Below are positions 23,670 through 62,783 of a stretch of 64,000 nucleotides of DNA, piece by piece. This DNA is from Jiangella sp. DSM 45060 (GTDB taxonomy: Bacteria > Actinomycetota > Actinomycetes > Jiangellales > Jiangellaceae). Below the pieces are notes generated by a model. It did not search any database. It saw only the letters and a list, made by a program, of their open reading frames with translations, and was not told where the DNA came from. The stretch's first letter is position 1. The number at the start of each line of letters is the position of its first letter. The position numbers and the translations under genes are program-made. The DNA lies in contig NZ_LT629771.1 of NCBI RefSeq assembly GCF_900105175.1, forward strand, positions 1,364,001 through 1,428,000, written 5' to 3'.

Positions 23670-23715
23670 TCCGCCCGCGTCCCCCGCATCGAGAGAGACA
23701 CGAGGAACCCGCTCC

Positions 23716-24471: not shown

Positions 24472-24475
24472 CCCG

Positions 24476-35264: not shown

Positions 35265-35302
35265 TGCAAGCGGTTGCAAACACCGTCCGCAGCATCTACG
35301 CT
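35265..35302 (+). promoter_or_regulatory. LacI-type operator overlapping the promoter of the 35338 operon
   Basis: 14-mer TGCAAGCGGTTGCA at 35265-35278. It overlaps a -35 element TTGCAA (35274-35279), which is followed by a 17-base spacer and TACGCT (35297-35302). It lies seven bases after the LacI gene and 60 bases before the oxidoreductase gene it probably controls. Confidence 0.78.
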
Positions 35303-38335: not shown

Positions 38336-38380
38336 TTGACGGGCCGCAACGGCCCGGCTAGGTTATTGCAACCGCTTGCA
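38336..38380 (+). promoter_or_regulatory. Promoter and LacI operator of the sugar-importer operon
   Basis: TTGACG (38336-38341), a 17-base spacer and TAGGTT (38359-38364), then two bases later the operator TGCAACCGCTTGCA (38367-38380) over the expected transcription start. A degenerate second copy TGCAAGCGGACACA (11 of 14) lies at 38422-38435 and could be an auxiliary site. Confidence 0.85.
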
Positions 38381-39726: not shown

Positions 39727-39796
39727 GCGACGTCATCCTGTGCCGGGTGAGGTCACCGTGGCCTCACCCGGCACCCCAATTCACGAGGAGAGGCCG

Positions 39797-41611: not shown

Positions 41612-42574
41612 GTGGTGAACCGGGTGACGGTGGCGACCGTGTCGGCGGAGCCGCTGCGGCTGGGCGCGGAGGTGCGGCCGGCCGACGCGGGTCAGCGGAT
41701 GATCGCGCACTGGCGGGACCGGCTGGAGACGGTGCGGTACGCGCGGCCGGACCTCGTGGTGCTGCCCGAGCACTGCGACCGGCCGGCGGCGAGCTACCCG
41801 GCGGACCTGCTCGAGGAGTACTTCCAGGTCCGCGGCGACCGGGTCCGGGACGCGTTCGTCGAGCTGGCCGCGGAGATCGGCGCCAACATCGCCTACTCCG
41901 GTCTCCGGGTGACCCCCGACGGCCGGTTCAACTCGACGCAGCTCATCGACCGTCGCGGCGAGATCGCCGGCGTCTACGACAAGACCTTCCTGACCGATGG
42001 CGAGGCCGTCACGCTGACACCCGGCACCGGCGCTCGGGGCATCCAGCTCGACTTCGGTCTGGTCGCGCCGGCGATCTGCTTCGACCTGAACTTCGACGAG
42101 TTGCTACGTGACGTGGCCGGGCTGGGGCCGGACCTGGTGGCGTTCAGCTCGGCGTTCCACGGCGGCTCCCTCCAGACCCACTGGGCATATACGGCTCGGG
42201 CCCACTTCGCCGGCGCCGTCTACCCGCCGGCGAGGAGCGCGGTGCTGAGCCCGTTCGGCGAGGTGATCGCGTCCAGCACGAACTATCGCCATGAAGCCGT
42301 GGGGACGGTGAACCTCGACACGGTGCTGATCCATATCGACCACAACGGACCGAAGTTCGACGCGATCCGGCGCGAGTACGGGCCGGACGTCCGTATCCAC
42401 GATCCCGGACTGATCGGCGTCGTGGCCCTGAGCTCGGAACGCGAGGGGCTGTCCGCCACAGACGTCATCGAGCGATTCGAGCTCGAACGGCTCGACGAGT
42501 ACTTCGCCCGGGTGCGCGAGCGTCAGCCACGGCGCTCCGGGTCTCCCTTGACGCGTCGTTCGCCGGGTCGCTAG
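41612..42574 (+). CDS. Carbon-nitrogen hydrolase (nitrilase superfamily)
   Basis: 320 residues with the Glu-Lys-Cys triad of the nitrilase superfamily: Glu in PDLVVLPEHCDRP, Lys in GVYDKTFLTDGE and Cys in VAPAICFDLNFDELL. These enzymes hydrolyse non-peptide amide bonds or nitriles. The C-terminal part carries HNGPKFDAIRREYGPDVRIH. Two adjacent GTG codons (41612 and 41615) could both serve as start. It lies 25 bases after the sugar permease and is probably in the same operon, which suggests that the imported sugar carries an amide-linked group. Confidence 0.86.
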   Translation: MVNRVTVATVSAEPLRLGAEVRPADAGQRMIAHWRDRLETVRYARPDLVVLPEHCDRPAASYPADLLEEYFQVRGDRVRDAFVELAAEIGANIAYSGLRVTPDGRFNSTQLIDRRGEIAGVYDKTFLTDGEAVTLTPGTGARGIQLDFGLVAPAICFDLNFDELLRDVAGLGPDLVAFSSAFHGGSLQTHWAYTARAHFAGAVYPPARSAVLSPFGEVIASSTNYRHEAVGTVNLDTVLIHIDHNGPKFDAIRREYGPDVRIHDPGLIGVVALSSEREGLSATDVIERFELERLDEYFARVRERQPRRSGSPLTRRSPGR

Positions 42575-42591
42575 GTTTGCAACCGCTTGCA
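42548..42591 (+). promoter_or_regulatory. Promoter and LacI operator of the 42652 operon
   Basis: TTGACG (42548-42553), an 18-base spacer and TAGGTT (42572-42577), directly abutted by TGCAACCGCTTGCA (42578-42591). The layout is almost identical to that at 38336-38380. The -35 lies within the last codons of the nitrilase-family gene. Confidence 0.83.
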
Positions 42592-42651
42592 CGACGATGA
42601 CGATGGCGGTCCGTGCAGCAGGCGGTCCGGCGCGGAGCGAAGGAGAGAAGC

Positions 42652-43641
42652 GTGTCCACACCACCTACGGTGGCGGTCATCGGCGCCGGCGGCGTCGCAC
42701 AGGTGCACGTGCCCGCGTGGCAGGAGCTCGGCGTGCGGCTGCGGGTGTTCTCCGAGCAGTACGGCGACGGGCTGCGGGACCGGTTGGGTCCGGACGTCAT
42801 CGCGGGGAGCCTCGCCGAGGCGCTCGACGGCGCCGACGTCGTCGATGTCTGCACGCCGACGCACACGCACGCGGAGATCGTGCGGGCCGCTGCGGCCGCC
42901 GGCTGCGACGTCGTCTGCGAGAAGCCGCTGGCGCTGACCTCGGAGCTGGCGACGCAGCTGATCGCCGACTGCGAGAGCGCCGGCGTCGGGCTGTATCCGG
43001 CCCACGTCGTGCGGTACTTCCCGGAGTACGCCGTCATGCAGCGACATGTCGCCGCGGGTGGCGTGGGCCGCATCGCGGTGCAGCGGTTCTCGCGGTCCGG
43101 CGCGAGGCCGAGGGCGGCCTGGTTCGCCGACGCGGCGCTCAGCGGCGGCATCGTCATGGACCAGATGATCCACGACCTCGACCTCGCTCGCTGGACCGCC
43201 GGCCCCGTGCGGCAGGTCTTCGCCCGGTCCGTCGAGACCGACGAGGTGGTCAGCGCCCAGGTCGTCCTCACCCACGAGAACGAGGCCCTGAGCTACGTCA
43301 GCGGGGCGTGGATGCCGCCGGGCAGCAGGTTCCGCACCTGGTTCGAGGTGGCCGGTAGCGACGGCCTCGTCCATCATGACTCCGCCCGGCAGGCGTCGCT
43401 GACGTTCGACGGCGGTGCCGGCAACGACGGCCGGGGGCTGCTGCCGCCGCGGTCGTTCACCGAGAGCCCGTACACGACGGAGCTGCGGGAGTTCCTGGCC
43501 GCCTGCACCGGCGGACCGGCGCCCCGGGTCAGCGCCGCGGACGGACTCGAGGCCGTCCGCCTTGCCGAAGCAGCGAATCTTTCGATGCGCACCGGCACCG
43601 CGGTCCGCATCACCGCCGGCGACCACAGGAGCGTGGCATGA
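42652..43641 (+). CDS. Gfo/Idh/MocA family oxidoreductase
   Basis: 329 residues from GTG 42652, which follows AAGGAGA. Canonical loop VAVIGAGGVAQVHVPAWQEL, Lys in VCEKPLALTSEL, active-site segment GGIVMDQMIHDLDLARWTAG. The C-terminal sheet domain is normal. It is coupled by ATGA to a second family member at 43638, and the two may act in sequence or as partners on the imported sugar. Confidence 0.9.
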   Translation: MSTPPTVAVIGAGGVAQVHVPAWQELGVRLRVFSEQYGDGLRDRLGPDVIAGSLAEALDGADVVDVCTPTHTHAEIVRAAAAAGCDVVCEKPLALTSELATQLIADCESAGVGLYPAHVVRYFPEYAVMQRHVAAGGVGRIAVQRFSRSGARPRAAWFADAALSGGIVMDQMIHDLDLARWTAGPVRQVFARSVETDEVVSAQVVLTHENEALSYVSGAWMPPGSRFRTWFEVAGSDGLVHHDSARQASLTFDGGAGNDGRGLLPPRSFTESPYTTELREFLAACTGGPAPRVSAADGLEAVRLAEAANLSMRTGTAVRITAGDHRSVA

Positions 43642-44663
43642 ACCGCCCCCCACTGCGTATCGGCCTGTTGTCCTTCGCGCATCTGCACGCCGCCTCCTAC
43701 GCCAGAGTGCTGGCCGGTATGCCCGACGTGGAGGTGCTGTCCACGGACCCCGGCCACGAGGCGCGTCCGGACGGCGAGATCGGCGGCGCGGCGGCCGCGG
43801 AACGCTTCGGCGTGCCGTACGCCGACGACATCGACGCGCTGCTGGCGTGGCGGCCCGACGCGGTGGTCGTGTGCTCCGAGAACGTCCGCCATCGCGAACA
43901 CGTCGAGCTGCTCGCCGCGGCCGGTGTGCACGTGCTGTGCGAGAAGCCGCTGGCGACCTCCGTCGAGGACGCGACGGCGATGGTCAAGGCGTGCGAGGCC
44001 GCGGGCGTGCACCTGATGGTCGCCTTCCCGGTGCGGTTCTCCCCGGTGTTCGCCGCGCTGCGCCAGCGGCTCGACGACGGTCAGTTGGGCCGGATCTGCG
44101 CCGTGACCGGGACCAACAACGGCCGGGTGCCGGGTGGCCGGGCCTGGTTCACCTATCCGGACCTCGCCGGTGGAGGCGCGCTCACCGACCACACGGTGCA
44201 CGTGGCCGATCTGATGGACGCGCTCCTCGGTGGCGCGCGGCCGCGCAGCGTCTACGCCCAGGCCAGCAACGTCCTGCACCCCGAACTCCGGGTCGAGACG
44301 GCCGGTCTGGTCTCCATCGAGTACCCGGGCGGTATCGTCGCCACCATCGACTGCAGCTGGTCCAAGCCGGACGGCTACCCGATCTGGGGCGGTCTCACGC
44401 TGCAGGTCGTGGGGACGGCGGGTGCGGCCGACCTGGACGCGTTCGCCCAACTGGTGACCGGCTTCTCCCAGTCGCGAGGCGCGGCTGTGAACCTCTCCTA
44501 CGGAGTCGACGCCGACGCCCTGCTGCTGGCCGAGTTCGTCGACGCGATCCGCGAGGGCCGGACGCCGCAGCCCGACGGCTACGTGGGCCTGCGCACAGTG
44601 GAGATCGTCGAGGCGGCGTACGCGTCGGCTGGGTCCGGGGAGCCGGTCACCCTGTCGCCGTAG
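43638..44663 (+). CDS. Gfo/Idh/MocA family oxidoreductase with SFAHLHA loop
   Basis: 341 residues. The N-terminus reads LRIGLLSFAHLHAASYARVL, so the usual GxGxxG is replaced by SFAHLHA, a variant loop. Lys is in LCEKPLATSVEDA and the active-site segment is GGGALTDHTVHVADLMDALL. Last gene of the plus-strand part of the island. Confidence 0.88.
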   Translation: MNRPPLRIGLLSFAHLHAASYARVLAGMPDVEVLSTDPGHEARPDGEIGGAAAAERFGVPYADDIDALLAWRPDAVVVCSENVRHREHVELLAAAGVHVLCEKPLATSVEDATAMVKACEAAGVHLMVAFPVRFSPVFAALRQRLDDGQLGRICAVTGTNNGRVPGGRAWFTYPDLAGGGALTDHTVHVADLMDALLGGARPRSVYAQASNVLHPELRVETAGLVSIEYPGGIVATIDCSWSKPDGYPIWGGLTLQVVGTAGAADLDAFAQLVTGFSQSRGAAVNLSYGVDADALLLAEFVDAIREGRTPQPDGYVGLRTVEIVEAAYASAGSGEPVTLSP

Positions 44664-45167: not shown

Positions 45168-47702
45168 TCAGAGATTCGCGCACTGGCGGGTGGCGAGCCC
45201 GGTGACGGTGTTGGGGGTGCCGTCGTCGGTGGGAGGGGGCTCGTTGCCGACGCATACGAGAGCGCCGGTGATGGTGTTGCCGGCGACGACCGGGGGCTCG
45301 GCGGCGGTGTTGTCGACGAGCCGCACCGGTCCGGTGATGTCGTTGCCGCTGAGGGTGACGACCGAAGTGGTGCCGGTGATGCTGACGAGCCCGCCGATCG
45401 AGCTGTCCGTGATCGTGACGAGGGCCGCGGCATCGGCACGGACGGAGCCGGTCACCTCGGCATCGGTCACGACGAGGCCGGCGCCGGCGCCGACGGAGAC
45501 CGGTCCCGCCACCGTGGCGCCGGTGACGCAGGTGGTGCCCTCGGTGACGGTGAGTGGCCCGTCGTGGCCGTCGGCGATGGTCGTGTCGCACACCACCGGA
45601 TCCGGGACGTCGTACTCGTACACGTGGATGCCGCTGGAGAAGACGATGTCGCCGTCGGCGTCGACGTTGGCGTAGTTGCCGACGCCGTTCACGAGAAGGG
45701 TGTACTCCATGGTCTCGGGGTCGATGCGGAACAGCGAGTTGCGGTTGGTGCCGTAGACGTTGCCGTCGGCGCCGGTCCGCAGGTAGGCGTAGGCCCAGAC
45801 GGTGCTGCTGCCGTAGCGGTGGCCCAGCAGCTTCTCGGAGTAGACGATCTGCTCCTGTGCGGGGTCGTACTTGAAGACGGTGTCTTCCGACACGCCCCAG
45901 ATGAGCCCGTCCGGGCCGAGCATGAGGCCGGTGACGCCCTCGTCGCCGGCGACGGGCACGAAGTCGTGCACCTTCTGGCCGGTGTCGGGGTCGAAGACGA
46001 CGAAGTGCGCCTCGGTCTGGGTCGACGGGGGCGCGCCGAGGCCGCCGTCGATCGTCGTGCCGGCATAGACCAGCCCGTCGTGGTAGAGCACCGAGATGAC
46101 CGACTGGTCGGTGACCACCTCGGTGGTGTGGACGGTCTTCGTCCCGGTGCCGAAGTCGTACTGGGTGAGCGCGCCCTGATGGTGTCCGTAGTAGGCCACC
46201 GTGCCGACGAACACCCGGTCGTTCTGTTCGTCGTAGGCCATGCCGAACGGCCGGTCCTGGTTCTCGGCCTTGAGATCGAACAGCAGCTTCGGCGCCGCGC
46301 CCGAGGCCGGGTCGTACTCCAGCAGCTTCCCGTTCCCGTACGCGCCGAGCAGCATCTTCCCGTCGCGAACCGCGGAGGACTCGTACTGGCCGGACTGCAG
46401 CGTGTCACCGATCTCGCCGTCCGCCGAGAACGGCGTGAGGCCTGTCGGGTAGCCGGAGGCGTACAACGAGTCCGGCCCGGTGAGGATCTTCTGGACGAGC
46501 ACCGGGTTCCGGTACTCGACGGGGTGCGCGGCCGAGGTGGCGGTCTGCGGGTTGTACAGCGTCGTGCCGTTGTTGGTCGCCGCGACCATGGTCCAGCCCG
46601 GCCAGGCCGGGTCGTCGAGCTGCGTCCACCACGAGTCGTTCAGCACTCCGTGATTGCGCACACCGAGATCCCGGACGCTTCGCGTGGCGGCGTCGTATTC
46701 GGCGAACGTCCCGCTCGCCGAGGAGAACACGTACCTGGCGGGTGCGCCGGGAACGGCGGCGACGTGGTAGCCGAAGGCTTCCCGGCCGGTCCCGGTCCAG
46801 TACTCCACCTCGTCGTCGGCGTTGATGACGAGCAGCTGGCTGGACCCGCCGCGGGCGAACAGCCGGCCATCGACGAACGTGAACGTGCTGATGAACGACT
46901 CGTCCATGGCGCCGGGCGTGGTCTCGTCGCTCAGCAGGGCCGTCTTCGTGCCGTCGGGCGCGACCTTGTAGAGCTGGGCGCGGTTGCCGCCGACGCCGAC
47001 GTACAGGTTGCCCCGCTCCAGGTCGTAGGCCAGCGCCTTGATGTACGGCTGGCTGGGATCGACCGCGCCCAGGTTGGTGATCGAGTCGTCGGCGGGGTCG
47101 TAGCGGTAGAGATAGCCGTTCGGGTACGACCCCAGGTACATGCGCCCGTCCTCCGCGGCGGCGAGACTCCACACGTTCCCGTCGCGCGGCGACTCCGGAT
47201 TCACCAGCCCGATCTTGCGCAGCTGGGTGGTCGCCGGGTCGTACACCCACAGGTTGTTGTCGGTCGTCGTGACGAAGTAGATCCGGCCGTCCGTCGATGC
47301 GCGCAGCTCCATGGAGAAGTCCGCCCCCGGCAGGCCGAAGGTCCGGACGATCTCGCCGGTCGTGGCGTCGGCGACGACGAACGTGGCCGGAGCCTCGGAG
47401 TCACCCGCGCCCCGGAAGATCGCGTAGAACCTGGGTGCGCCGTCCTCGAGCCCGATGAGGGTGTTCTGGACGTGGCGGCTGGTCACCGGGGTGCCGGTGT
47501 AGGACAGCCGCGGGTCCTGGGCGAGGACGTCCTCAGGTTCCGGGTTCGGTGGCAACGCGGGCGGCGCGGCCGTCGCCGCGGCGCCCGGGTCTGCGGCGCT
47601 CGCCCGGGGGAGGGCGAGCGCCGCACCCGCGAGCACCAGCATGACGGCGACCGCCAGGGCGAGCAGCCGCGTCGGCGGCCTGGACACAGAGGTTTCGTAC
47701 AT
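45168..47702 (-). CDS. Secreted beta-propeller/beta-helix protein, tandem copy 4
   Basis: 844 residues, last gene of a four-gene minus-strand operon. Signal peptide LLALAVAVMLVLAGAALALP. Residues ~60-680 are propeller blades with repeating elements (GRMYLGSYPNGYLYRYDPAD; GNLYVGVGGNRAQLYKVAPD; LIWGVSEDTVFKYDPAQEQI). From ~690 a run of short rungs (VTGATVAGPVSVGAGAGLVV; TDSSIGGLVSITGTTSVVTL) resembles a right-handed beta-helix, with Cys near both ends (PVVCDTTIADG, ALVCVGNEPPP, TRQCANL). ATG 47702 is taken because GAGGTAGCG precedes it. No catalytic residues can be assigned. It is the most divergent of the four copies. Confidence 0.86.
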   Translation of the reverse strand: MYETSVSRPPTRLLALAVAVMLVLAGAALALPRASAADPGAAATAAPPALPPNPEPEDVLAQDPRLSYTGTPVTSRHVQNTLIGLEDGAPRFYAIFRGAGDSEAPATFVVADATTGEIVRTFGLPGADFSMELRASTDGRIYFVTTTDNNLWVYDPATTQLRKIGLVNPESPRDGNVWSLAAAEDGRMYLGSYPNGYLYRYDPADDSITNLGAVDPSQPYIKALAYDLERGNLYVGVGGNRAQLYKVAPDGTKTALLSDETTPGAMDESFISTFTFVDGRLFARGGSSQLLVINADDEVEYWTGTGREAFGYHVAAVPGAPARYVFSSASGTFAEYDAATRSVRDLGVRNHGVLNDSWWTQLDDPAWPGWTMVAATNNGTTLYNPQTATSAAHPVEYRNPVLVQKILTGPDSLYASGYPTGLTPFSADGEIGDTLQSGQYESSAVRDGKMLLGAYGNGKLLEYDPASGAAPKLLFDLKAENQDRPFGMAYDEQNDRVFVGTVAYYGHHQGALTQYDFGTGTKTVHTTEVVTDQSVISVLYHDGLVYAGTTIDGGLGAPPSTQTEAHFVVFDPDTGQKVHDFVPVAGDEGVTGLMLGPDGLIWGVSEDTVFKYDPAQEQIVYSEKLLGHRYGSSTVWAYAYLRTGADGNVYGTNRNSLFRIDPETMEYTLLVNGVGNYANVDADGDIVFSSGIHVYEYDVPDPVVCDTTIADGHDGPLTVTEGTTCVTGATVAGPVSVGAGAGLVVTDAEVTGSVRADAAALVTITDSSIGGLVSITGTTSVVTLSGNDITGPVRLVDNTAAEPPVVAGNTITGALVCVGNEPPPTDDGTPNTVTGLATRQCANL

Positions 47703-47746
47703 CGCTACCTCGCAGGTCATGGGTCGGGTGGGCTCGGGTTCAGAGG
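47697..47746. repeat. 50-base exact repeat, copy 1
   Basis: Identical to 50269-50318. It spans the first codons of the downstream propeller gene, its ribosome site, the 37-base intergenic gap and the last codons of the upstream gene. This is a mark of recent tandem duplication or gene conversion. Confidence 0.85.
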
Positions 47747-50274
47747 TCGGCGCACTGGCCGGTTCGGGGTCCGGTGACGGTGTTGGCGTCGCCGTCGCTG
47801 ACGGGTGCCGGGTCGTTGCCGGAGCAGGCGAGCGGGCCGGTGATGGTGTTGCCGCCGACGACGGGTGGCGCGGTGGTGGTGTTGCCGGTGAGCTCGACCG
47901 GGCCGGTGATGTCGTTGCCGGTGACGGTGAGCGTGCCGGTGGTGCCGGTGACGTGGGTCGGGCCGCTGATGGTGCTGCCGGTGATGGTGACGGTGGCCGC
48001 CGTATGCGCCCGGACGGGTCCGGTCACCTCGGAGCCGGTCAGGACGAGGCCGGCGGCCGCGCCGACGGTGACCGGTCCCACCACCGTGGCGTCGGTGACG
48101 CACGTGGTGCCCTCGGTGACGGCCAGCGGGCCGGTTTGGGTGCCGGTGATCTCCTGGTCGCAGACGACGGGGCCGGGCACGTCGTACCTGAAGATGTTGA
48201 TGCCGCTGGAGAACAGGATGTCGCCGTTGGCGTCGACGTTGGCGTAGTTGCCGACGCCGTTGACCAGCCGGGTGTACTCCATCGTCTCGGCGTCGATGCG
48301 GAACAGCGAGCCGCGGTTGGTGCCGTAGACGTTGCCGTCGGCGCCGGTCACGAGGTAGGCCCAGGCCCAGACGGTGCTGGTGCCGTACCGGTTGACCAGC
48401 AGTTTCTTGGAGAACACGATCTTCTGCTGCGCGGGGTCGTACTTGAAGACGGTGTCCTCCGACACGCCCCAGATGAGCCCGTCCGGGCCCACCATCAGTC
48501 CGGTGACGCCCTCGTCACCGGCGACGGGCACGAAGTCGTGCACCTTCTGGCCGGTGTCGGGGTCGAACACGACGAAGTGCGCCTCGGTCTGGCCGGACGG
48601 GGGAGCGCCCAGGCCGCCGTCGAGCGTCGTGCCGACGTACAGCAGCCCGTCGTGGTGCAGGACGGAGATGACCGACTGGTCGGCGACCACCTCCGCGGTG
48701 TAGACGCTCTTCTTCCGCGTGGCGAAGTCGTAGACGGCGAGTGCGCCTTGGTTGTTGCCGTAGTAGGGCACGGTGCCGACGAACAGCCGGTCGTTCTCCT
48801 CGTCGTAGTCCATGGCGAAGGGCCGGTCCTGGTCCTCGGCCTTGAGGTCGAACAGCTGGCGCGGCGCCGTGCCGGCGGCCGGGTCGTACTCCAGCACCCT
48901 GCCGTTGCCGTACGCGCCGAGCAGCATCTTCCCGTCCCGGACGGCCGACGACTCGTACTGACCGCTCTTGAGCGTCGCTCCGGCGTCGCCGGTGACGGAG
49001 TCGAACGGGGTGAGCCCCTCCATGTAGCCGGAGGCGTACATCGAGTCCGGCCCGGTGAGGATCTTCTGGATCGCCACCGGATTGCTGAACTCGATCTCGT
49101 GCGCGACCGATTCACCCGTGGTGAGGTTGATGCGCGCGACGCCCTCGCTGGTGGCAGCCACCATCGTCGGCCCCGGCCAGTCCGGGTCGCCGAGATCGGT
49201 CCAATAGGCATCGTTCAGGTAACCGTTGTTCGGGATGCCGAGGTCCCGCTTGGTCCCGGTGGCGGCGTCGTACTCCCAGAAGGTCGAGCCGTAGGTGAAG
49301 ACGTACCTGCCGGGCGCGTCCGGGCGTTCGGACACGTGGTAGCCGAACATCTCCTTGCCCGAGTCCGTCCAGTACTCGACCTGGTCGTCGGCGCCGATCA
49401 CGAGCAGCTGGCTGGACCCGCCGCGGGCGAACAGCCGGTCCCCGGTGAAGGTGAACGAGAACACGAACGACTCGTCCTGCAGCCCGGGCGCGTTCTCGTC
49501 GGTGATCAGAGCGGTCGTCGTGCCGTCGGACGAGACCTTGTAGATCTGCGCCCGGCTGCCGCCGACACCCACGTACAGGTTCTGCCGTTCGAGGTCGTAC
49601 GCCATGGCGCGGATGTACGACTGGCTGGGGTCGACCTGACCGAGGTTCGTGACTGTGCCGTCCGCCGGGTCGTACAGGTAGAGGTGACCCTTGGGGTAGG
49701 TGCCGACGTACATCTTGCCGTCCTCGGCGGCGGCCAGCGACCAGACGTAGCCGTCCGTCGGGGTCTCCTCGTTGAGTGGGCCGAGGTTGGTGACGTCCTT
49801 CGTCACCGGGTCGTAGACCCAGAAGTTGTAGTCGTAGGTCGTGCCGAAATAGACCTTGCCGTCCGTCGCGGCTCGCACCTCGGTCGCGTGCGAAGCACCT
49901 GGCAGGTGAAGGGAGCGAACGAGCTCGCCGGTCAGGGCGTCGGAGACGACGAACGCCGCCGGGCTGTCGGTCTCGCCCGCACCCCGGTACACCCCGTAGA
50001 CCACCTGCCGGCCGTCCTCCTCGCCCATCACCATGTTGGTGATGATCTTCGTCGTGACCGGTGCGCCGAGATGGGACAGCCGCGGGTTCTGCGCGACGAC
50101 CTCGTCCGGGGCCGGGTTCGGTGGCAGGCGAGGAGGAGTGGCCGTGGCACCGGCGACCGGCTCGGTGGCCGCGCCGTTCAGCGGCTCGGCGGTGGCGGCG
50201 CCCGTCAGGACGAGCGCGCCGGTCGCCGCGAGAGCGAAGAGTCGCGTCCGGGCGCGGTTCAGGAGACGGTACAT
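47740..50274 (-). CDS. Secreted beta-propeller/beta-helix protein, tandem copy 3
   Basis: 844 residues, the same length as copy 4. Signal peptide RLFALAATGALVLTGAATAE. Blades include GKMYVGTYPKGHLYLYDPAD, QNLYVGVGGSRAQIYKVSSD, DGKMLLGAYGNGRVLEYDPA and LIWGVSEDTVFKYDPAQQKI. The C-terminal helix-like rungs are GPVTVGAAAGLVLTGSEVTG, TITGSTISGPTHVTGTTGTL and TVTGNDITGPVELTGNTTTA, with the same Cys positions (VVCDQEITG, LACSGNDPAP, GQCADL). ATG 50274 is used; the open frame continues upstream into copy 2 but only as non-coding shadow. It is separated from its neighbours by 37 bases on each side. Confidence 0.87.
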   Translation of the reverse strand: MYRLLNRARTRLFALAATGALVLTGAATAEPLNGAATEPVAGATATPPRLPPNPAPDEVVAQNPRLSHLGAPVTTKIITNMVMGEEDGRQVVYGVYRGAGETDSPAAFVVSDALTGELVRSLHLPGASHATEVRAATDGKVYFGTTYDYNFWVYDPVTKDVTNLGPLNEETPTDGYVWSLAAAEDGKMYVGTYPKGHLYLYDPADGTVTNLGQVDPSQSYIRAMAYDLERQNLYVGVGGSRAQIYKVSSDGTTTALITDENAPGLQDESFVFSFTFTGDRLFARGGSSQLLVIGADDQVEYWTDSGKEMFGYHVSERPDAPGRYVFTYGSTFWEYDAATGTKRDLGIPNNGYLNDAYWTDLGDPDWPGPTMVAATSEGVARINLTTGESVAHEIEFSNPVAIQKILTGPDSMYASGYMEGLTPFDSVTGDAGATLKSGQYESSAVRDGKMLLGAYGNGRVLEYDPAAGTAPRQLFDLKAEDQDRPFAMDYDEENDRLFVGTVPYYGNNQGALAVYDFATRKKSVYTAEVVADQSVISVLHHDGLLYVGTTLDGGLGAPPSGQTEAHFVVFDPDTGQKVHDFVPVAGDEGVTGLMVGPDGLIWGVSEDTVFKYDPAQQKIVFSKKLLVNRYGTSTVWAWAYLVTGADGNVYGTNRGSLFRIDAETMEYTRLVNGVGNYANVDANGDILFSSGINIFRYDVPGPVVCDQEITGTQTGPLAVTEGTTCVTDATVVGPVTVGAAAGLVLTGSEVTGPVRAHTAATVTITGSTISGPTHVTGTTGTLTVTGNDITGPVELTGNTTTAPPVVGGNTITGPLACSGNDPAPVSDGDANTVTGPRTGQCADL

Positions 50275-50318
50275 CGCTACCTCGCAGGTCATGGGTCGGG
50301 TGGGCTCGGGTTCAGAGG
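50269..50318. repeat. 50-base exact repeat, copy 2
   Basis: Identical to 47697-47746 and in the same position relative to its genes: start of tandem copy 3, ribosome site, 37-base gap, end of tandem copy 2. Confidence 0.85.
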
Positions 50319-52738
50319 CCGGCGCACTGGCCGGTGCGGGGTCCGGTGACGTCGTTGGGGTCGCCGCCGTCGACGGGTGCGGGGTCGTTGCCGGTGCAGG
50401 CGAGCGGCCCGACGACGGTGTTGCCGCCGACGACCGGTGGCGCCGTGGTGGTGTTGCCGGTGAGGGCGACCGGCCCGGTGAGCCGGTTGCCGGTGAGGGT
50501 GAGCGTGCCCGTGGTGCCGGTGAGGTGGATCGCCCCGGTGATCCGGGAGTCGGTGATGACGACCGCGTCGGCGCCGGTGGCCGTGATGGGGCCGCTGACG
50601 GTGGCGCCGGTGACGCAGAGCGTGCCGTCGGTGACGACGAGCGGTCCGGCGTGGGTGCCGGTGATCTCCTGGTCACACACGATCGGTTCGGGGACGTCGT
50701 ACTTGAACAGGTGGACGCCGGTGGAGAACAGGATGTCGCCGTTGGCGTCGACGTTGGCGTAGTTGCCGGCGCCGTTGACCAGGCGGGTGTACTCCATGGT
50801 GTCGGCGTCGATGCGGAACAGCGAGCCGCGGTTGGTGCCGTAGACGTTGCCGTCGGCGCCGGTCACGAGGTAGGCCCAGGCCCAGACGGTGCCGCTGCCG
50901 TAGCGGTGGCCCAGCAGCTTCTCGGAGTAGACGATCTGCTCCTGCGCGGGGTCGTACTTGAAGACCGTGTCCTCGGAGACGCCCCAGATCAGGCCGTCGG
51001 GGCCGACGGTGAGGCCGGTGACGCCCTCGTCGCCGGCGACCGGTACGAAGTCGTGCACCTTCTGGCCGGTGTCGGGGTCGAAGACGACGAAGTGCGCCTC
51101 GGTCTGGGTCGACGGGGGAGCGCCCAGCCCGCCGTCGAGCGTGGTGCCGACGTAGAGCAGGCCGTCGTGGTAGAGCACCGAGATCACCGACTGCTCCGAC
51201 ACGATCTGCGTGGTGAAGACGGTCTTCTCCTTGGTCGCGAAGTCGTACATCGCGACGGCGCCCTGATGGGTGCCGTAGTAGGGGACGGTGCCCATGAAGA
51301 CGCGGTCGTTCTGCTCGTCGTAGTCCATGGCGAACGGCCGGTCCTGGTCCTCGGCCTTGAGGTCGAACAGCAGCTTCGGCGCCGCGCCCGAGGCCGGGTC
51401 GTACTCCAGCAGTTTCCCGTTGCCGTACGCGCCGAGCAGCATCGTCCCGTCGCGGACGGCTGACGACTCGTACTGGCCGGACTGCAGCGTCGCCCCGATC
51501 TCGCCGGTGACCGAGTCGAACGGCGTGAGCCCGATCATGTAGCCGGAGGCGTACATCGAGTCCGGCCCGGTCAGGATCTTCTGCACGGTCACCGGGTTGG
51601 CGAAGTCGACCGTGTGCAGCTCCGAGCGGCCGGTCGTCGGGTTCATCAGGACGCTGCCGCCCTGGGTGGCGGCGAGCATGCTGTAGCCCGGCCACTCGGG
51701 GTCGTCGAGCTCGATCCAGCGGCTGTCGTTGAGGTAGGTGTTCGTCTTGATGCCGAGGTCGCGCGTGGTCGCGGTGGCGGAGTCGTACTCCCAGAAGTTG
51801 GTGCCGTAGCCGAAGATGAACTTCCCGGGCGCGTCCGGGCGGGCGGAGACGTGATAGCCGAACGCCTCCTTGGCGCCGCCCTTCCAGTACTCCACCGTGT
51901 CGTCCGGCCGCATGACCAGCAGTTGGCTGGACACGGTGCGGGCGAACAGCCGGTCACCGGTGAAGGTGAACGTGTTGATGAACGTCTCGTCCATCAGGCC
52001 GGGCGCGTTCTCCTCGGTGATGAGGGCGGTCTTCGTCCCGTCGGCCGTGATCTTGTAGACCTGCGCCCGGGTGCCGCCGACGCCGACGTAGAGGGTGTCG
52101 CGGCCGAAGTCGTAGGCCAGCGCCCGCACGTACGCCTGAGTCGGGTCCACCGCGCCCAGGTTCGTGAACGACCCGTCGGCGGGGTCGTACTCGAACAGGT
52201 AGCCCTTCGGGTACGTGCCGATGAACATGGTGCCGCCGGGGCCGGCGGTCATCGTGATGGGGTAGCCGTCGCCGGGCTTGTCGGCGTTGATGAAGCCGAG
52301 ATCGGTCACCTGCCGGGTGGCGGGGTCGTACTCCCACAGCTTGTAGTCGTGGTTGGTGCCGATGTAGACCTTGCCGTCGGTGGACGTGCGGATCTCGAAG
52401 TTCCCCTCGGCGCCGGGCAGCGGCAGCGCGCGGATGACCTCGCCGGTGTTGGCGTCCGCGACGACGAGCGTGCACGGGTTGTCGGTGTCGGCGTGGCCGC
52501 GGTAGGCGCCGTAGGTGACGGCCCTGCCGTCCTCCTCGCCGAGCACCGAGTTGGTGGTGATCTTGCTGGTCACGGGCGTGCCCAGGTAGCTGATCGCCGG
52601 GTCCTGGGCCAGCACGTCCTCAGGGGTCGGGCTGGACGGCAGGGGCGGAGGCGTCGCGGCGGCGGACGGCGGCCCGGCGAGTGCCGCGCCGGTCAGCGCG
52701 AGCCCCGCGGCGGTGACCAGGGACAGGATTCGGTGCAT
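50312..52738 (-). CDS. Secreted beta-propeller/beta-helix protein, tandem copy 2
   Basis: 808 residues. Signal peptide MHRILSLVTAAGLALTGAAL. After DPAISYLGTPVTSKITTNSV the propeller blades run to ~660 (GTMFIGTYPKGYLFEYDPAD; DTLYVGVGGTRAQVYKITAD; LYHDGLLYVGTTLDGGLGAP). The C-terminal rungs are two fewer than in copies 3 and 4 (GATVSGPITATGADAVVITD; LTLTGNRLTGPVALTGNTTT). It resembles the first copy (52777) more than the others in blades and rungs. It lies 38 bases after that gene, so co-transcription is expected. Confidence 0.87.
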   Translation of the reverse strand: MHRILSLVTAAGLALTGAALAGPPSAAATPPPLPSSPTPEDVLAQDPAISYLGTPVTSKITTNSVLGEEDGRAVTYGAYRGHADTDNPCTLVVADANTGEVIRALPLPGAEGNFEIRTSTDGKVYIGTNHDYKLWEYDPATRQVTDLGFINADKPGDGYPITMTAGPGGTMFIGTYPKGYLFEYDPADGSFTNLGAVDPTQAYVRALAYDFGRDTLYVGVGGTRAQVYKITADGTKTALITEENAPGLMDETFINTFTFTGDRLFARTVSSQLLVMRPDDTVEYWKGGAKEAFGYHVSARPDAPGKFIFGYGTNFWEYDSATATTRDLGIKTNTYLNDSRWIELDDPEWPGYSMLAATQGGSVLMNPTTGRSELHTVDFANPVTVQKILTGPDSMYASGYMIGLTPFDSVTGEIGATLQSGQYESSAVRDGTMLLGAYGNGKLLEYDPASGAAPKLLFDLKAEDQDRPFAMDYDEQNDRVFMGTVPYYGTHQGAVAMYDFATKEKTVFTTQIVSEQSVISVLYHDGLLYVGTTLDGGLGAPPSTQTEAHFVVFDPDTGQKVHDFVPVAGDEGVTGLTVGPDGLIWGVSEDTVFKYDPAQEQIVYSEKLLGHRYGSGTVWAWAYLVTGADGNVYGTNRGSLFRIDADTMEYTRLVNGAGNYANVDANGDILFSTGVHLFKYDVPEPIVCDQEITGTHAGPLVVTDGTLCVTGATVSGPITATGADAVVITDSRITGAIHLTGTTGTLTLTGNRLTGPVALTGNTTTAPPVVGGNTVVGPLACTGNDPAPVDGGDPNDVTGPRTGQCAGL

Positions 52739-52776
52739 GGGCTACCTCGCTTGTCGTCGGGTCGGGAGGCGCGTGG

Positions 52777-55725
52777 TCAGAGGCCGGCGCACTGGCCGGC
52801 GCGGGGTCCGGTGACGGTGTTGGGGTCGCCGCCGTCGACCGGCGCGGGGTCGTTGCCGGTGCAGGCGAGGGCGCCCGTGATGGTGTTGCCGCCGACGACG
52901 GGTGGCGCCTCGGTGGTGTTGCCGGTGAGGGCGACCGGCCCGGTGAGCTGGTTGCCGGTCAGGGTGAGCGTGCCGGTGGTGCCGGTGACGTGGATCGGCC
53001 CGGTGATCCGGGAGTCGGTGATGACGACCGCGTCGGCGCCGCTGGCGGTGATGGGGCCGCTGACGGTGGCGTCGGTGACGCACAGCGTGCCCGCGGTGAC
53101 GGCCACCGGCCCGGTGTGGGCGCCGGTGATCTCCTGGTCGCACCGGAGCGCGTCGGGGACGTCGTACTTGTACACGTCAACGCCGTGGGAGAAGAGGAGG
53201 TCGCCGTTCGCGTCGACGTTGGCGTAGTTGCCGACGCCGTTGACCAGCAGCGTGTACTCCATCGTCGCCGGGTCGATCCGGAACGCCGAGAACCGGTTCG
53301 TGCCGTAGACGTTGCCGTCGGCGCCGGTCACCAGGTAGGCGTAGGCCCAGACGGTGCTGGTGCCGTAGCGGTGGCGCAGCAGCTTCTCGGAGAAGACGAT
53401 CTCCTCGGTCGCGGGGTCGTACGTGAAGACCGTGTCCTCCGACACGCCCCAGATCAGCCCGTCCGGGCCCGCCATCAAACCGGTCACGCCCTCGTCGCCG
53501 GCGACCGGGACGATGTCGTGCACCTTCTGGCCGGTCTCGGGGTCGAAGACGACGAAGTGGCCGTCGGTCTGGCCGGACGGCGGCGCGCCGAGGCTGCCGT
53601 CGACGGTCGTGCCGGCGTACACGAGCCCGTCGTGGTAGAGCACCGAGATCACCGACTGGTCGGTGACGATCTCGGTCGTGTAGACGCTCTTCTCGCCCGT
53701 GGCGAAGTCGTACTGGGTGAGCGCGCCCTGGTTGGAGCCGTAGTAGGCGACGGTGCCGACGAACAGCCGGTCGTTCTCCTCGTCGTAGTCCATGCCGAAC
53801 GGCCGGTCCTGGTCCTCGGCCTTGAGGTCGAACAGCAGTCGCGGCGCGGCGTCGGCGGCCGGGTCGTACTCCAGCACCCGGCCGTTGCCGTACGCGCCGA
53901 GGAGCATGGTGTCGCCCCGGACCGCCGACGACTCGTACTGGCCCGACTGCAGCGTCTCGCCGGCCTCGCCGGTCACCGAGTCGAACGGCGCGAGCCCGAC
54001 CATGTAGCCGGAGGCGTACATCGAGTCCGGCCCGGTGAGGATCTTCTGCACCGTGACGGGGTTGGCGAAGTCGATGGTGCGCGGCTCGGACCGGCCGGTC
54101 GCCGGGTTCATCAGCACGGTGCCGTCCTGGGTGGCGGCGAGCAGGCTGTAGCCGGGCCACTCGGGATCGTCCAGCTGCACCCACCGGCTGTCGTTGAGGT
54201 ATCCGTTCGTCTCGATGCCCAGGTCGCGGGTGGTCGCGGTGGCCGAGTCGTACTCCCAGAACGTCCGGCCGAACGTGAAGACGTACGTCCCGGGGGCGTC
54301 CGGGCGGGCCGCGACGTGGTACCCGTGCGCCTCGTTGCCCTGGCCCTTCCAGTACTCCACCGTGTCGTCGGCCCGGATGACCAGCAGCTGGTTGGAGACC
54401 CGGGCGAAGAGGCGGTCGTCGACGAAGGTGAACGTGCTGACGAACGACTCGTCCATGGCGCCGGGCGTGGCCGCGTCGCTGAGCAGCTCCGTCGTGGTGC
54501 CGTCGGGCGCCACCTTGAAGATCTGGGCCCGGGTGCCGCCGGTGCCGACGTAGAGCGTGTCGCGCTCGAAGTCGTAGGCCAGGCCCTTGATGTAGGCCTG
54601 GGTCGGGTCGACCGCGCCGAGGTTGGCGATGGAGTCGTCGGCCGGGTCGTACCGGTACAGGTAGCCCTTGGGGTACGTGCCGATGAACATGGTGCCGTCG
54701 GGCCCGGCGGTCATGGTGAAGGCGTGGCCGTCCCTGGGATTCTCCGGGTTGAGCGGCCCGATGTCCCGGAGCTCCTTGGTGCCGGGGTCGTAGGACCACA
54801 GGTGGAAGTCGGGGGTGGTGGCGAAGTAGACGGTGCCGTCGGTCGAGGCCCGCGTCTCGAACGTCCCCTCGGCGCCGGCGGCCGGGAGGGCGCGGATGAC
54901 CTCGCCGGTGTCGGCGTTCGCCACCACGAACGTCGCCGGGTGATCGGTGTCGGGGTGGCCACGGTAGACGCCGTACGTGACGGCCGTGCCGTCCTCCTCG
55001 CCGAACACCGCGTTCGTGGTGATCTTGCTGGTGACCGGCGTCCCCAGGTGCGAGATCGCCGGGTTCTGCGCGACGACGTCCGCCGGCGTGGGGTCGGTCA
55101 GCCGGGGCGGCTCGAGGGCACCGGCGGTGACTGTGACGGTGTCGAAGTAGCCGGCGCCGCGCGGGGTGGTGGCCGAGTAGAGCAGGACGGTGCCGGTGAC
55201 CGCGCCCTCGGGGGCGGTGGCGGTGATCGACGTCGTCGTCCACGCGCCGCCGGTCTCGCCCTGCGGGGTGGCGACGTTCGTGAGGCGGGTGCCCTCGGCG
55301 TCGTAGAAGCGCAGGTAGACGGCGAGCTGGTCGCGGTCCACGCGGGTCATCGCCGCAGCCGTGTAGGCCCGCCGCACCTCGACGTCGAAGGGATCGCTCT
55401 CGATGGCGACGCCGTAGACGCCGGAGTCGTCGGTGATCGACAGGCTGTGGGTGCCCTCGTGCGCCGCGTCCTCGGTGACGGCGTACGAGGTGTCCGGCCG
55501 CGCCGAGCCCACCAGCTGCCAGCCCGGGATGACGCCGTCGGTGACAGGCTCCTCGAACGACGGGTTGGCCAGGACCGGATCCGCCGCCGTGGCGACCGGC
55601 GCGCCCGATGCCGGAACCGCCCCCGAGGCCAGCAGGGCGGTGGCGCCGAGAAGCGCGGCGGCGCGGGCCGTGAGGCGACCGCGCCGCCGCGGGCCGTGGT
55701 GTCCGTTCGCGTGCCGGGAAGTCAT
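52777..55725 (-). CDS. Secreted protein: carbohydrate-binding-like domain, beta-propeller and beta-helix (tandem copy 1)
   Basis: 982 residues, first gene of the operon. Signal peptide AAALLGATALLASGAVPASG. Residues ~50-200 form an extra beta-sandwich beginning DPVLANPSFEEPVTDGVIPG, followed by GWQLVGS and SLSITDDSGVYGVAIESDPF, and resemble the CBM4/9 carbohydrate-binding fold. This domain is absent from the other copies. The propeller follows (GTMFIGTYPKGYLYRYDPAD; LIWGVSEDTVFTYDPATEEI) and the rung domain closes the protein (GADAVVITDSRITGPIHVTG; LTLTGNQLTGPVALTGNTTE). ATG 55725 follows AAGGGAGC. The promoter and tandem LacI operators lie at 55807-55867. Confidence 0.88.
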   Translation of the reverse strand: MTSRHANGHHGPRRRGRLTARAAALLGATALLASGAVPASGAPVATAADPVLANPSFEEPVTDGVIPGWQLVGSARPDTSYAVTEDAAHEGTHSLSITDDSGVYGVAIESDPFDVEVRRAYTAAAMTRVDRDQLAVYLRFYDAEGTRLTNVATPQGETGGAWTTTSITATAPEGAVTGTVLLYSATTPRGAGYFDTVTVTAGALEPPRLTDPTPADVVAQNPAISHLGTPVTSKITTNAVFGEEDGTAVTYGVYRGHPDTDHPATFVVANADTGEVIRALPAAGAEGTFETRASTDGTVYFATTPDFHLWSYDPGTKELRDIGPLNPENPRDGHAFTMTAGPDGTMFIGTYPKGYLYRYDPADDSIANLGAVDPTQAYIKGLAYDFERDTLYVGTGGTRAQIFKVAPDGTTTELLSDAATPGAMDESFVSTFTFVDDRLFARVSNQLLVIRADDTVEYWKGQGNEAHGYHVAARPDAPGTYVFTFGRTFWEYDSATATTRDLGIETNGYLNDSRWVQLDDPEWPGYSLLAATQDGTVLMNPATGRSEPRTIDFANPVTVQKILTGPDSMYASGYMVGLAPFDSVTGEAGETLQSGQYESSAVRGDTMLLGAYGNGRVLEYDPAADAAPRLLFDLKAEDQDRPFGMDYDEENDRLFVGTVAYYGSNQGALTQYDFATGEKSVYTTEIVTDQSVISVLYHDGLVYAGTTVDGSLGAPPSGQTDGHFVVFDPETGQKVHDIVPVAGDEGVTGLMAGPDGLIWGVSEDTVFTYDPATEEIVFSEKLLRHRYGTSTVWAYAYLVTGADGNVYGTNRFSAFRIDPATMEYTLLVNGVGNYANVDANGDLLFSHGVDVYKYDVPDALRCDQEITGAHTGPVAVTAGTLCVTDATVSGPITASGADAVVITDSRITGPIHVTGTTGTLTLTGNQLTGPVALTGNTTEAPPVVGGNTITGALACTGNDPAPVDGGDPNTVTGPRAGQCAGL

Positions 55726-55806: not shown

Positions 55807-55867
55807 TGCAACCGGATGCATGCAAGCGGTTGCAAGGCAAGCTAGCGGTCCGGCCGCGAGCCGTCAA
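55807..55867 (-). promoter_or_regulatory. Promoter with two abutting LacI operators for the propeller operon
   Basis: Read on the minus strand: TTGACG (55867-55862), a 17-base spacer, TAGCTT (55844-55839), then TGCAACCGCTTGCA (55834-55821), directly followed by a second, degenerate site (55820-55807, plus-strand TGCAACCGGATGCA). The -35 overlaps the stop codon of the upstream DUF4127 gene. It drives the four tandem propeller genes. Confidence 0.85.
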
Positions 55868-57366
55868 GAGGTCGTGGGCGCCGCCCGCGTCAGCTCGAAG
55901 TCGACGGTGAACGTGTACGACCAGGGCAGTCGCGCGTCGTCGATGCGCCAGCCGGCGAGTGCGTCGACACCGGCGGCCCAGGCGCGAAGGTCCCGGGTGA
56001 TCCGGTCGTGGACCGCGGGCAACTCGTCGAGCGGCGGGTCGAGCAGCCCGCGGGCGGCGGCCTCGTCCTGGATGCGGCGCCGCACGACCGGCAGGTAGTG
56101 GGCGTCCTCGATGATCTTGCGGGCGAGGAACCGGCGACGTTCGGCGGCCGCGGCCTCGGTGCCGGCCAGGACGGCCGCGACGCCGGCGGAGAGGGTGGTG
56201 CCGATCGAGTTGCCGGCGGTGTTCCAGCCGCCGTAGGCGGCCAGGCGCCCCAGCACGCGCCGCGCGTCCAGCGCCTCGACCAGCCGCGGGTCGCCGCCGT
56301 TGGCGTAGTGCACGTCGGCCAGCGCCACCACGCGGCCGTCGTCGAGCAGCCGTTCGACGGCGTCGACGAGCGGGTCCACCGGCGCCGCGGCGGTGAGGTC
56401 CGGCGGCGAGGACACCCAGTCGCCGGGCTCGACCGCCGGCGGGTGGACGGCGAGCACCAGGTCCGCGTCAGCCGGATCGGCCACCTGGACGCCGCCGACG
56501 GCCCGGATCTGGTTCGCCAGGCCGATCCGCAGCGGCCGATCCTCGTACGGCGCGATGCGCTCGAGCCCGGCCTCGTCCGGGCAGACGACCGTGATGCGCG
56601 GCCGCACCCCGGCGGCGCTCGCCGCGACGCGTGCCACCAGGACGCTGGGCACTTCGTCGGCGCCCGGGTACATCAGCACGTCGGCGCCGAGGCGGTCCGC
56701 CCAGTGCCCGAGCAGGCGGCGCTCGGCCGCCGGCAGGCCGCGCGGCGCGGTGTCGTCCGAGGAGATCACCAGCGTGTCGAGGACGCCGTCCGCCGCCAGC
56801 TCCAGCGCGGCGAGGTTGACCGCGTGGTTGCGGGCGCGCCGCCGCACGAGGTCGCGCACGTACTCGTCGGGGACGCTCGCGCGGGCGGCGGCGACGGTCG
56901 CCTCGTCCGTCTCGCCGAGGGACGCCTCGTCCCACAGCCGGGAGAGCGTCCCGAGCCGGGCCCCGTGGGTGGCCCAGTACTCCGGTTCCTGCCGGGAGCG
57001 GGCGCGGTTGTCGTAGGTGGGCAGCCGCGTCACGACGCCGTAGGCGGTCACCGGCGTGCCGAGCTCGCGCAGCACGGAGAGTCGCGGGACGACGTCGGCC
57101 ATCCGGTCCTCGGTGTTGCGCGACGGGATCAGCCCGCCGTGCACGAGCAGCTCGAGCGAGACCAGCACGTGGTCGACGTCCGGCGCGACGCCGCGCAGCC
57201 AGCCGGCGAGGCCGGCGGTGTCGGCGGGCGTCCGGAACGACGGCATCAACTCCTTCGGCGGGGTCAGGACGTCGACGCCGGCGCAGCGGCCGATCGTCGC
57301 CGCGTAGCCGCGGGTGTTCGGCCGCTCGTCGGGCGGGAGCAGGGCGATGCGGGTCACGTCGGGCAC
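55864..57366 (-). CDS. DUF4127 family protein
   Basis: 500 residues. The opening RIALLPPDERPNTRGYAATI is the conserved start of the DUF4127 family (ALxPxDxRPxN). Other family segments are LVSLELLVHGGLIPSRNTED, VTAYGVVTRLPTYDNRARSR, DTLVISSDDTAPRGLPAAER, MYPGADEVPSVLVARVA and YGGWNTAGNSIGTTLSAGVA. Function is unknown. Length is typical and there is no signal peptide. It lies 13 bases downstream of the enolase-superfamily gene and is probably co-transcribed with it and the AGE gene. Its 3' end carries the -35 of the propeller operon. Confidence 0.85.
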   Translation of the reverse strand: MPDVTRIALLPPDERPNTRGYAATIGRCAGVDVLTPPKELMPSFRTPADTAGLAGWLRGVAPDVDHVLVSLELLVHGGLIPSRNTEDRMADVVPRLSVLRELGTPVTAYGVVTRLPTYDNRARSRQEPEYWATHGARLGTLSRLWDEASLGETDEATVAAARASVPDEYVRDLVRRRARNHAVNLAALELAADGVLDTLVISSDDTAPRGLPAAERRLLGHWADRLGADVLMYPGADEVPSVLVARVAASAAGVRPRITVVCPDEAGLERIAPYEDRPLRIGLANQIRAVGGVQVADPADADLVLAVHPPAVEPGDWVSSPPDLTAAAPVDPLVDAVERLLDDGRVVALADVHYANGGDPRLVEALDARRVLGRLAAYGGWNTAGNSIGTTLSAGVAAVLAGTEAAAAERRRFLARKIIEDAHYLPVVRRRIQDEAAARGLLDPPLDELPAVHDRITRDLRAWAAGVDALAGWRIDDARLPWSYTFTVDFELTRAAPTTS

Positions 57367-57379
57367 CTTCCGGAAGGGG

Positions 57380-58696
57380 TCAGTAGAGGCCGGGCTCGGC
57401 CGGAGCGGAGATCGTCACGGCGCCGTCGCGCACGGTCGTGAGGTCCGGCCGGTCGCCGCCGAGCCGCGCGTTGGCCGCCGGTGCGTACTGGCGGCTGTTG
57501 TACTCGAGGTGTGGTGACGGCAGGTCGAACAGGCTGACCAGCCGGGCCGAGTGCACCAGCGCCAGGTCGACCGCGGTGAGGTCCTGGACCGTCACGTAGA
57601 GGCCGGCCGCCTTGGCGGCGGCGTGCGCGAGCAGCGCCGCGCTGTGCCCCTTGCCCGCCTTGACGACGATTCCGCCCCAGCCGGCGTCGCGCAGAGCCGG
57701 CACGGTGTGCGGGTCGGTCAGCCCTTCGTCCATGACGACGGGGAGGCGGCGGCCGATGCGGGCCAGCGCGGCCGGGTCGGGCGTCGTGTCGCGCGGCACC
57801 GGCTGCTCGACGTAGGCGACGGCCCGGCCGGCCGCCGGATCGATCCGGTCGAGGTGGTCGAGTAGGTCCCCGACGTCGTCGGGCCGCTGGTAGCCCTCGT
57901 TCGGGTCGATCGCCAGCGCGAGGTCGAGGCCGAGGTCCCGGCCCAGCCGGTGCACGTCGGCCACCCGCCGGGCGTCCTTGGCGGCGTCGCGCGCGTGGAC
58001 CTTGATCTTCACGTGCCGCACGCCGTCGGCCGTCAGCCACTCGCGCAGGGATCGCCGCCCGTCCGCGGCGTCGTCCGGTTCGAGCGGATCGGTCGCGCCG
58101 GCCAGGTGCTGGACCTCCAGCCGCGTCCGCCGGGCGGCGAGGAAGTCGCCCGGCCAGCGGCCGTCCAGGGCCGGGCCGAGCCGGACGCCGAGGTCGTCGC
58201 GCAGGTGCCGCCCGGTGTACATCGTGTGGGCGGGCAGCCCGGCGGCCCGGGCCCAGGCGTCGTGCAGCGCGTTGTCGACGGCGCCGAGCGACAGCAACGC
58301 GGCCAGCGGCGGCACCGGCTCACCGAGCCCGGCGGCCGCGGCGGCGGCAGCGGCGGCGTCGCCGACGGCCTCGTGGGCGTCGAGCCAGCGGCGGATCGGG
58401 TCGGCCGGCGGCAGGCCGCACGCCCCGTCGGCCAGCCGCCGGGTCAGGTCGCGCAGGACCGCGTCGCGCTGCTCGACCGTGAGGGCCGAGCGCGGCCAGG
58501 CCCAGGGGACGGAGAGGATCGACGCGCCGCGGCCCGTGGCCGTCGCGCCCGCGCGGTTGCGGACGTCCACCTCGACGACGGCCACCGTGAACCAGGCGAT
58601 GGTCCGCCCGCTGATGACGAACGGGTGGGCGAGGTCGGTCTGCGTGAACGCCACCCGGGCGTCGAGCACCTCGACGTCGGTGTCGATCTCCGTCAC
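57380..58696 (-). CDS. Enolase-superfamily protein (mandelate racemase/muconate cycloisomerase-like)
   Basis: 438 residues. Superfamily residues appear in order: KxK in VRHVKIKVHARD, metal Asp in LALAIDPNEGYQ, Glu in VAYVEQPVPRD, Asp-Glu in VVMDEGLTD and Lys in GIVVKAGKGHSAAL. The N-terminal cap is long, with GATATGRGASILSVPWAWPR. Unlike the ManD at 25617 it has no match to a named acid-sugar dehydratase that I recognise. GTG 58696 overlaps the AGE stop (GTGA). An epimerase or dehydratase acting on a sugar acid is inferred from context. Confidence 0.83.
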   Translation of the reverse strand: MTEIDTDVEVLDARVAFTQTDLAHPFVISGRTIAWFTVAVVEVDVRNRAGATATGRGASILSVPWAWPRSALTVEQRDAVLRDLTRRLADGACGLPPADPIRRWLDAHEAVGDAAAAAAAAAGLGEPVPPLAALLSLGAVDNALHDAWARAAGLPAHTMYTGRHLRDDLGVRLGPALDGRWPGDFLAARRTRLEVQHLAGATDPLEPDDAADGRRSLREWLTADGVRHVKIKVHARDAAKDARRVADVHRLGRDLGLDLALAIDPNEGYQRPDDVGDLLDHLDRIDPAAGRAVAYVEQPVPRDTTPDPAALARIGRRLPVVMDEGLTDPHTVPALRDAGWGGIVVKAGKGHSAALLAHAAAKAAGLYVTVQDLTAVDLALVHSARLVSLFDLPSPHLEYNSRQYAPAANARLGGDRPDLTTVRDGAVTISAPAEPGLY

Positions 58697-59933: not shown

Positions 59934-59947
59934 AGCAATCGCTTGCA
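59934..59947. promoter_or_regulatory. Variant LacI operator between AGE and LacI genes
   Basis: AGCAATCGCTTGCA matches the island 14-mer TGCAACCGCTTGCA at 12 of 14 positions. It lies 15 bases before the AGE start and 42 bases before the LacI start, so it may serve both. The half TCGCTTGCA is intact apart from one base of the common site. Confidence 0.7.
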
Positions 59948-59988
59948 GTGGATTTTCGCGGCTACAGTAGCGCGTGGGAAGGAGACCA

Positions 59989-62758: not shown

Positions 62759-62783
62759 CAACCAGAGAATGAGGTCGATTGGC

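Follow-up and report, generated by a model that had tools for sequence, protein, structure and literature searches.

Four consecutive genes of Jiangella sp. DSM 45060, P1 to P4 (named in order of transcription), are on balance best read as encoding the secreted, glycan-contacting part of a dedicated regulon for amino-sugar glycan utilisation under LacI control. That they belong to a LacI-controlled regulon is very probable, and that their tandem propellers contact glycan is likely. The reading was computed from the protein architecture, from an operator common to propeller, importer and catabolic genes, from the co-occurrence of that operator with one LacI-family repressor, and from the linkage of propeller genes to one importer subfamily. 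All positions refer to the window, the whole stretch of 64,000 nucleotides that was analysed.

Genes and protein architecture

52777..55725, minus strand: P1, 982-aa predicted secreted protein with a CBM_4_9-like domain, tandem propeller and rung domain (ORF, signal-like N-terminus, Pfam)
55183..55575, minus strand: CBM_4_9-like domain of P1, residues 51-181 (Pfam PF02018)
52780..53142, minus strand: rung domain of P1 (alignment, four Cys)
50312..52738, minus strand: P2, 808-aa predicted secreted tandem-propeller and rung protein (AlphaFold2 model)
50315..50677, minus strand: rung domain of P2 (AlphaFold2 model, alignment)
47740..50274, minus strand: P3, 844-aa predicted secreted tandem-propeller and rung protein (ORF; 71% identity to P2)
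47743..48162, minus strand: rung domain of P3 (modelled alone, pLDDT 92)
45168..47702, minus strand: P4, 844-aa predicted secreted tandem-propeller and rung protein (ORF; 67% identity to P2)
45171..45590, minus strand: rung domain of P4 (alignment)
31425..34100, minus strand: P5, fifth paralogue, propeller and Ig-like domains, without rung and without Cys (41% identity to P2 in the propeller; Big_13/Big_7)

An earlier sequence-only reading had described four tandem paralogues of one layout, and overall this observation was confirmed. The coordinates and lengths of the four minus-strand genes (982, 808, 844 and 844 aa) are as it gave them, and all four have high GC3. The signal peptides that it proposed are apparent in each protein as a basic N-terminus, a hydrophobic stretch and an Ala-rich cleavage-like site, read from the sequence rather than by a signal-peptide program. 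The extra CBM-like domain of the first copy is a nearly full-length CBM_4_9 match (E=1.2e-4), yet falls below Pfam's gathering threshold (22.9 bits vs a cut-off of 25.9). The conserved cysteines number four and are invariant in the rung domain of each of P1-P4; the propellers are Cys-free, except for one Cys in the 808-aa copy, P2. In P5, whose Ig-like domains had also been noted, Big_13/Big_7 domains replace the solenoid.

Full-length P2 was modelled by AlphaFold2 from an alignment of nine sequences. The model has about 14 four-stranded blades forming two 7-bladed propellers (mean pLDDT 83, pTM 0.79), bearing out the proposed propeller blades, and the short solenoid strands come after the blades in the strand list.

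The rung domain and the proteins that carry it

Modelled alone, the rung domain is a beta-solenoid in which each turn of about 19 residues contains three short strands, as the proposed rungs would suggest. It shares three strands per turn with right-handed beta-helix and pentapeptide-repeat solenoids, but is much smaller than pectate-lyase-type helices and has its four Cys near its ends. No solved structure in the PDB matched it with E below 0.04, and no Pfam or NCBIfam model names it.

We found the rung domain in 64 of 346 Actinomycetes genomes. In the host genome it is C-terminal on BNR sialidase-like proteins that also bear CBM6 or F5/8C domains, as well as on an M64 peptidase; elsewhere it ends GH53 galactanase-like, CBM6-bearing, M64 and ParBc_2 proteins. 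Since it is also found on M64 peptidases and other non-carbohydrate proteins, the rung is not glycan-specific. As C-terminal module of M64 (IgA-peptidase-like) metallopeptidases it recurs in several Actinomycetes (L134, L137, L018:6127-8778). The host's BNR/GH33-like sialidase-type proteins resemble P1-P4 in being propellers with the same C-terminal rung module, but theirs is a single BNR propeller with Asp boxes, and the P1-P4 family has no BNR or Asp-box match.

Propeller and rung together are fused to the tannase-like DUF6351 in genomes G018 and G006, giving proteins of 1520-1567 aa (L059:14411-19114, L065:4947-9509). A DUF6351 gene directly follows the propeller array of G004, and in G003 DUF6351 is joined to a BNR propeller that has lectin-like domains; a fusion to BNR_2, laminin-G and Golvesin_C lies at L109:4852-10032. 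A literature search on DUF6351 and DUF4127, the latter encoded next to P1, returned nothing useful.

A palindromic operator and its probable repressor

The following operator sites were located by motif search (none is assigned a strand); the gene of the probable repressor, LacI59, is listed with them.

55807..55834: pair of neighbouring sites, TGCAANCGNTTGCA, preceding P1 (inverted repeats)
59934..59947: single-mismatch site between lacI and the AGE gene
42578..42591: site preceding two Gfo/Idh genes
38367..38380: site preceding the ABC importer
35265..35278: site preceding Gfo/Idh (35338) and alpha/beta hydrolase
30209..30222: site between divergent Gfo/Idh genes
21547..21560: site preceding the epimerase-DHDPS-NagB-NagA operon
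59974..60999, plus strand: LacI-family repressor LacI59 (Pfam; orthologue co-occurs with the operator)

The gap between the DUF4127 gene and P1 holds two adjacent CG-centred palindromes. This palindromic putative operator has eight sites in the window at two mismatches or fewer, vs 0.87 expected, and the six exact copies that the 7.49-Mb genome contains all fall inside one 34-kb span of the window. LacI59 matches Pfam LacI (E=1.4e-12) and has a sugar-binding domain. Among 22 Jiangellaceae genomes the operator is present in 12 of the 12 with a LacI59 orthologue vs one of the 10 without (Fisher p=2e-5, relatedness ignored), and the LacI59-bearing genomes account for 53 of 54 exact sites.

Exact operators stand upstream of a propeller gene in G003, G004, G010, G015 and G017 (in G017, upstream of three), and the operator is also found before propeller genes of J. 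muralis. The propellers so preceded in relatives include some just 27-39% identical to P2. This recurrence across genomes makes the propellers regular members of the regulon. For P5 we found no clear operator of its own, and a strict consensus sigma-70 promoter was not found upstream of P1. Of the earlier proposal of one LacI-controlled promoter, LacI control is supported, as is the sugar-responsive character of the genes; the single promoter for the whole operon was displaced by separate operators, a pair belonging to P1-P4 and the same operator preceding several other units.

Regulon content and importer linkage

58693..59919, minus strand: AGE-superfamily epimerase, N-acylglucosamine 2-epimerase-like (Pfam, NCBIfam, PDB)
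57380..58696, minus strand: enolase-superfamily enzyme (Pfam MR_MLE_C)
55864..57366, minus strand: DUF4127 protein (Pfam E=6e-122)
42613..44663, plus strand: two Gfo/Idh/MocA oxidoreductases (Pfam)
41612..42574, plus strand: nitrilase-superfamily amidase (Pfam CN_hydrolase)
38461..41586, plus strand: sugar-type ABC importer, binding protein (38461-39726) and two permeases (Pfam SBP_bac_1, BPD_transp_1)
35338..37307, plus strand: Gfo/Idh/MocA oxidoreductase (Pfam) and alpha/beta-hydrolase-like protein (reading of the translation)
21619..25498, plus strand: operon of NAD-dependent epimerase, DHDPS family (22635), NagB-like (23716) and NagA-like (24476) genes (Pfam, NCBIfam, PDB)

Members of the AGE, NagA and NagB families are under the same operator control (sites at 59934 and 21547), and together they point to N-acylhexosamines and so to a regulon serving amino-sugar catabolism, as read from the sequences. 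The NagA-like protein matches NagA in the PDB (E=8e-36). NCBIfam scores fall below the equivalog cut-offs (nagA 171 vs 226 bits, nagB 103 vs 237, AGE 140 vs 600), so that the amino-sugar reading is by family and not by orthology. A sialic acid pathway (NanA-AGE-NagA-NagB with sialidases) was considered and rejected, the DHDPS member being too remote (best PDB match a dihydrodipicolinate synthase, E=8e-4). DUF4127 was likewise rejected as an obligate partner of the propellers, since relatives carry it elsewhere without them.

Among 38 close relatives of the importer binding protein in the Jiangellaceae, 27 have a propeller gene no more than 10 kb away, vs 0.5 expected from position alone; for a control binding protein from another importer in the same window the count was 0 of 5. 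The glycan link proposed earlier is backed by this linkage, by the CBM-like domain and by the proteins that share the rung domain. The regulon is compact on contig 12 of G017, where one locus holds the importer, a hydrolase, one propeller, AGE, NagB, epimerase, DHDPS, NagA, Gfo/Idh and LacI59. At this minimal locus the propeller and the binding protein look to be the only exported proteins, as judged from the window's copies.

Some other genes of the window may be mentioned. Six Gfo/Idh/MocA genes lie between 28293 and 44663 (28293, 29288, 30300, 35338, 42613, 43638), most beside an operator, a cluster that recalls 3-keto glycoside pathways. At 25617-26840 a strong D-mannonate dehydratase ManD-family gene adjoins an SDR oxidoreductase, with no operator nearby. 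A TPP enzyme most like 5-guanidino-2-oxopentanoate decarboxylase is followed by a PotD-like binding protein (61172-63857), apparently a separate system.

Distribution and paralogue history

A profile search found the propeller family in all 20 well-assembled Jiangellaceae genomes and, outside that family, in only three genomes of the sample of 346. The host genome has about ten further relatives. The large investment in such proteins that the first reading had seen here is thus real, although it is not special to this locus.

Close orthologues of P1 and P2 exist in related genomes; for P3 and P4 there were none among the sequences collected. P3 and P4 group together weakly (86/71) and their 5′ leaders are almost identical, so that they look like a local tandem duplication. 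J. muralis, a close relative of the host, has the orthologous locus on its contig; there and in G004, genes three and four of the array belong to another branch of the propeller family and share about 30% identity with those here.

A second propeller locus in the host genome (about 2.87-2.88 Mb; L011:2789-16671) encodes epimerase and DHDPS homologues 63-64% identical to those of the window, together with importer, DegT-like aminotransferase and amidohydrolase-like genes. In G012 a sulfatase gene (SGSH-like C-terminus) sits beside a propeller gene (L115:12592-14385), which hints at a sulfated glycan for that subfamily.

Binding or cutting

Searches of Pfam, NCBIfam and PDB sequences and profiles found no catalytic family for the propellers, only generic propeller repeats. 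Among the best 50 of 1912 fold matches in the PDB nothing was lyase- or hydrolase-specific; these were WD40/UTP, HTCS (BT4663), Apaf-1, tricorn, PorZ and similar structures. GH74 xyloglucanases are tandem-propeller glycanases with a secreted two-propeller architecture, but they gave no sequence match to P1-P4 and are absent from those best 50 of 1912 matches. Polysaccharide lyase propellers were set aside for lack of sequence or fold support. The first interpretation accordingly survives in part: sugar-responsive, secreted and glycan-linked are upheld, glycan-cleaving is not, the fold matches being generic tandem propellers. With so generic a fold, a new cleaving family stays a candidate reading.

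Catalysis by the propellers themselves, as lyase or hydrolase, is conceivable, with the balance leaning somewhat against it. Cutting is favoured by the minimal loci of G015 and G017, which showed no further secreted enzyme, and disfavoured by the absent catalytic match. Four residues are invariant in the family (Y125, Y438, Q465 and R467, P2 numbering) and could be merely structural. It is unlikely that the propellers form a new catalytic family acting on amino-sugar glycans, whose active site would lie on the second propeller around Tyr438, Gln465, Arg467 and a Gly-rich GGxGxxP loop, and that the rung is at the same time a new accessory module of actinobacterial exoenzymes.

The propellers may instead be non-catalytic surface or secreted lectins that gather glycan close to the cell or to partner enzymes, after the model of surface glycan-binding proteins, with sialidase-like, GH53 and DUF6351 proteins encoded elsewhere as the cutting enzymes. 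This is a serious possibility that we rate a little short of even, and it is a sub-case of the regulon reading. It accords with the generic tandem-propeller fold and with the best sequence likeness, which is to sugar-sensing propellers of the Bacteroides HTCS sensors BT4663 and BT4673 (E=1e-12 with a profile of 21 diverse members, over about 120 residues of repeat sequence only). Those sensors (PDB 4a2l, 3ott) likewise have two 7-bladed propellers in one extracytoplasmic chain and are likewise tied to glycan utilisation loci; two predicted 7-bladed propellers and oligosaccharide binding have been reported for such sensors (PMC3243724). The DUF6351 fusion in two genomes resembles a targeting arrangement, and rung modules are common to several enzymes. 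Against mere binding stand the minimal loci of G015 and G017, as above, and the number of full-length paralogues, four per operon being many for a binder.

The locus might also serve a non-polymeric substrate, such as a plant or antibiotic aminoglycoside or a cyclitol glycoside, scavenged by the propellers. Many of the Gfo/Idh genes are closest to inositol 2-dehydrogenase, sister propeller loci carry DegT aminotransferase genes, and there is a precedent in the oxidoreductase-dependent cleavage of 3-keto glycosides known from other bacteria (PMC10628242, PMC7676230). The CBM-like domain of P1 and the rung-bearing glycanases favour polymeric glycans instead, and we hold a non-polymeric substrate to be rather improbable.

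Extracellular sensors or structural/adhesion proteins, co-regulated with surface remodelling rather than with glycan breakdown, would suit the tandem propellers known from sensors and surface proteins (PorZ, HTCS) and a rigid solenoid that could act as a spacer, but are very improbable given the lack of an attached kinase part, control by LacI and not by a two-component system, and the consistent importer linkage. Unlike the Bacteroides HTCS proteins, P1-P4 have no YYY domain, membrane span, kinase or regulator part (a Pfam scan found no YYY or kinase/regulator domain, and the chain ends in the rung domain); they are free predicted secreted proteins with a C-terminal solenoid, and sensing falls to the LacI repressor.

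Proposed role and significance

Because the propeller genes are switched together with the importer and the amino-sugar breakdown genes, P1-P4 are probably the extracellular part of a glycan-eating pathway. We infer that outside the cell the tandem propellers would grip an N-acylhexosamine-containing polysaccharide and possibly cut it, with the CBM-like domain of P1 and the solenoid as accessory modules; the ABC importer would bring in the fragments, which the Gfo/Idh oxidoreductases, the AGE epimerase and the NagA/NagB-like enzymes would degrade within the cell. Having four copies would broaden the set of linkages or decorations that can be dealt with.

The most fitting description of P1-P4 is that of an unnamed family that has a known fold and belongs to a newly delineated regulon. 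New here are the palindromic operator, the regulon content, the importer linkage, the rung domain on other exoenzymes and the DUF6351 fusions. DUF6351 and DUF4127 gain functional context, and the rung, as an unnamed module, would be useful as a marker for finding more extracellular enzymes. The propeller family, large, unnamed and secreted, occurs in all well-assembled Jiangellaceae examined and is rare elsewhere. It is now tied to a defined regulon, whose readable operator and defined importer make this orphan family testable: by that tie, one and the same glycan should act as inducer, importer ligand and propeller substrate.
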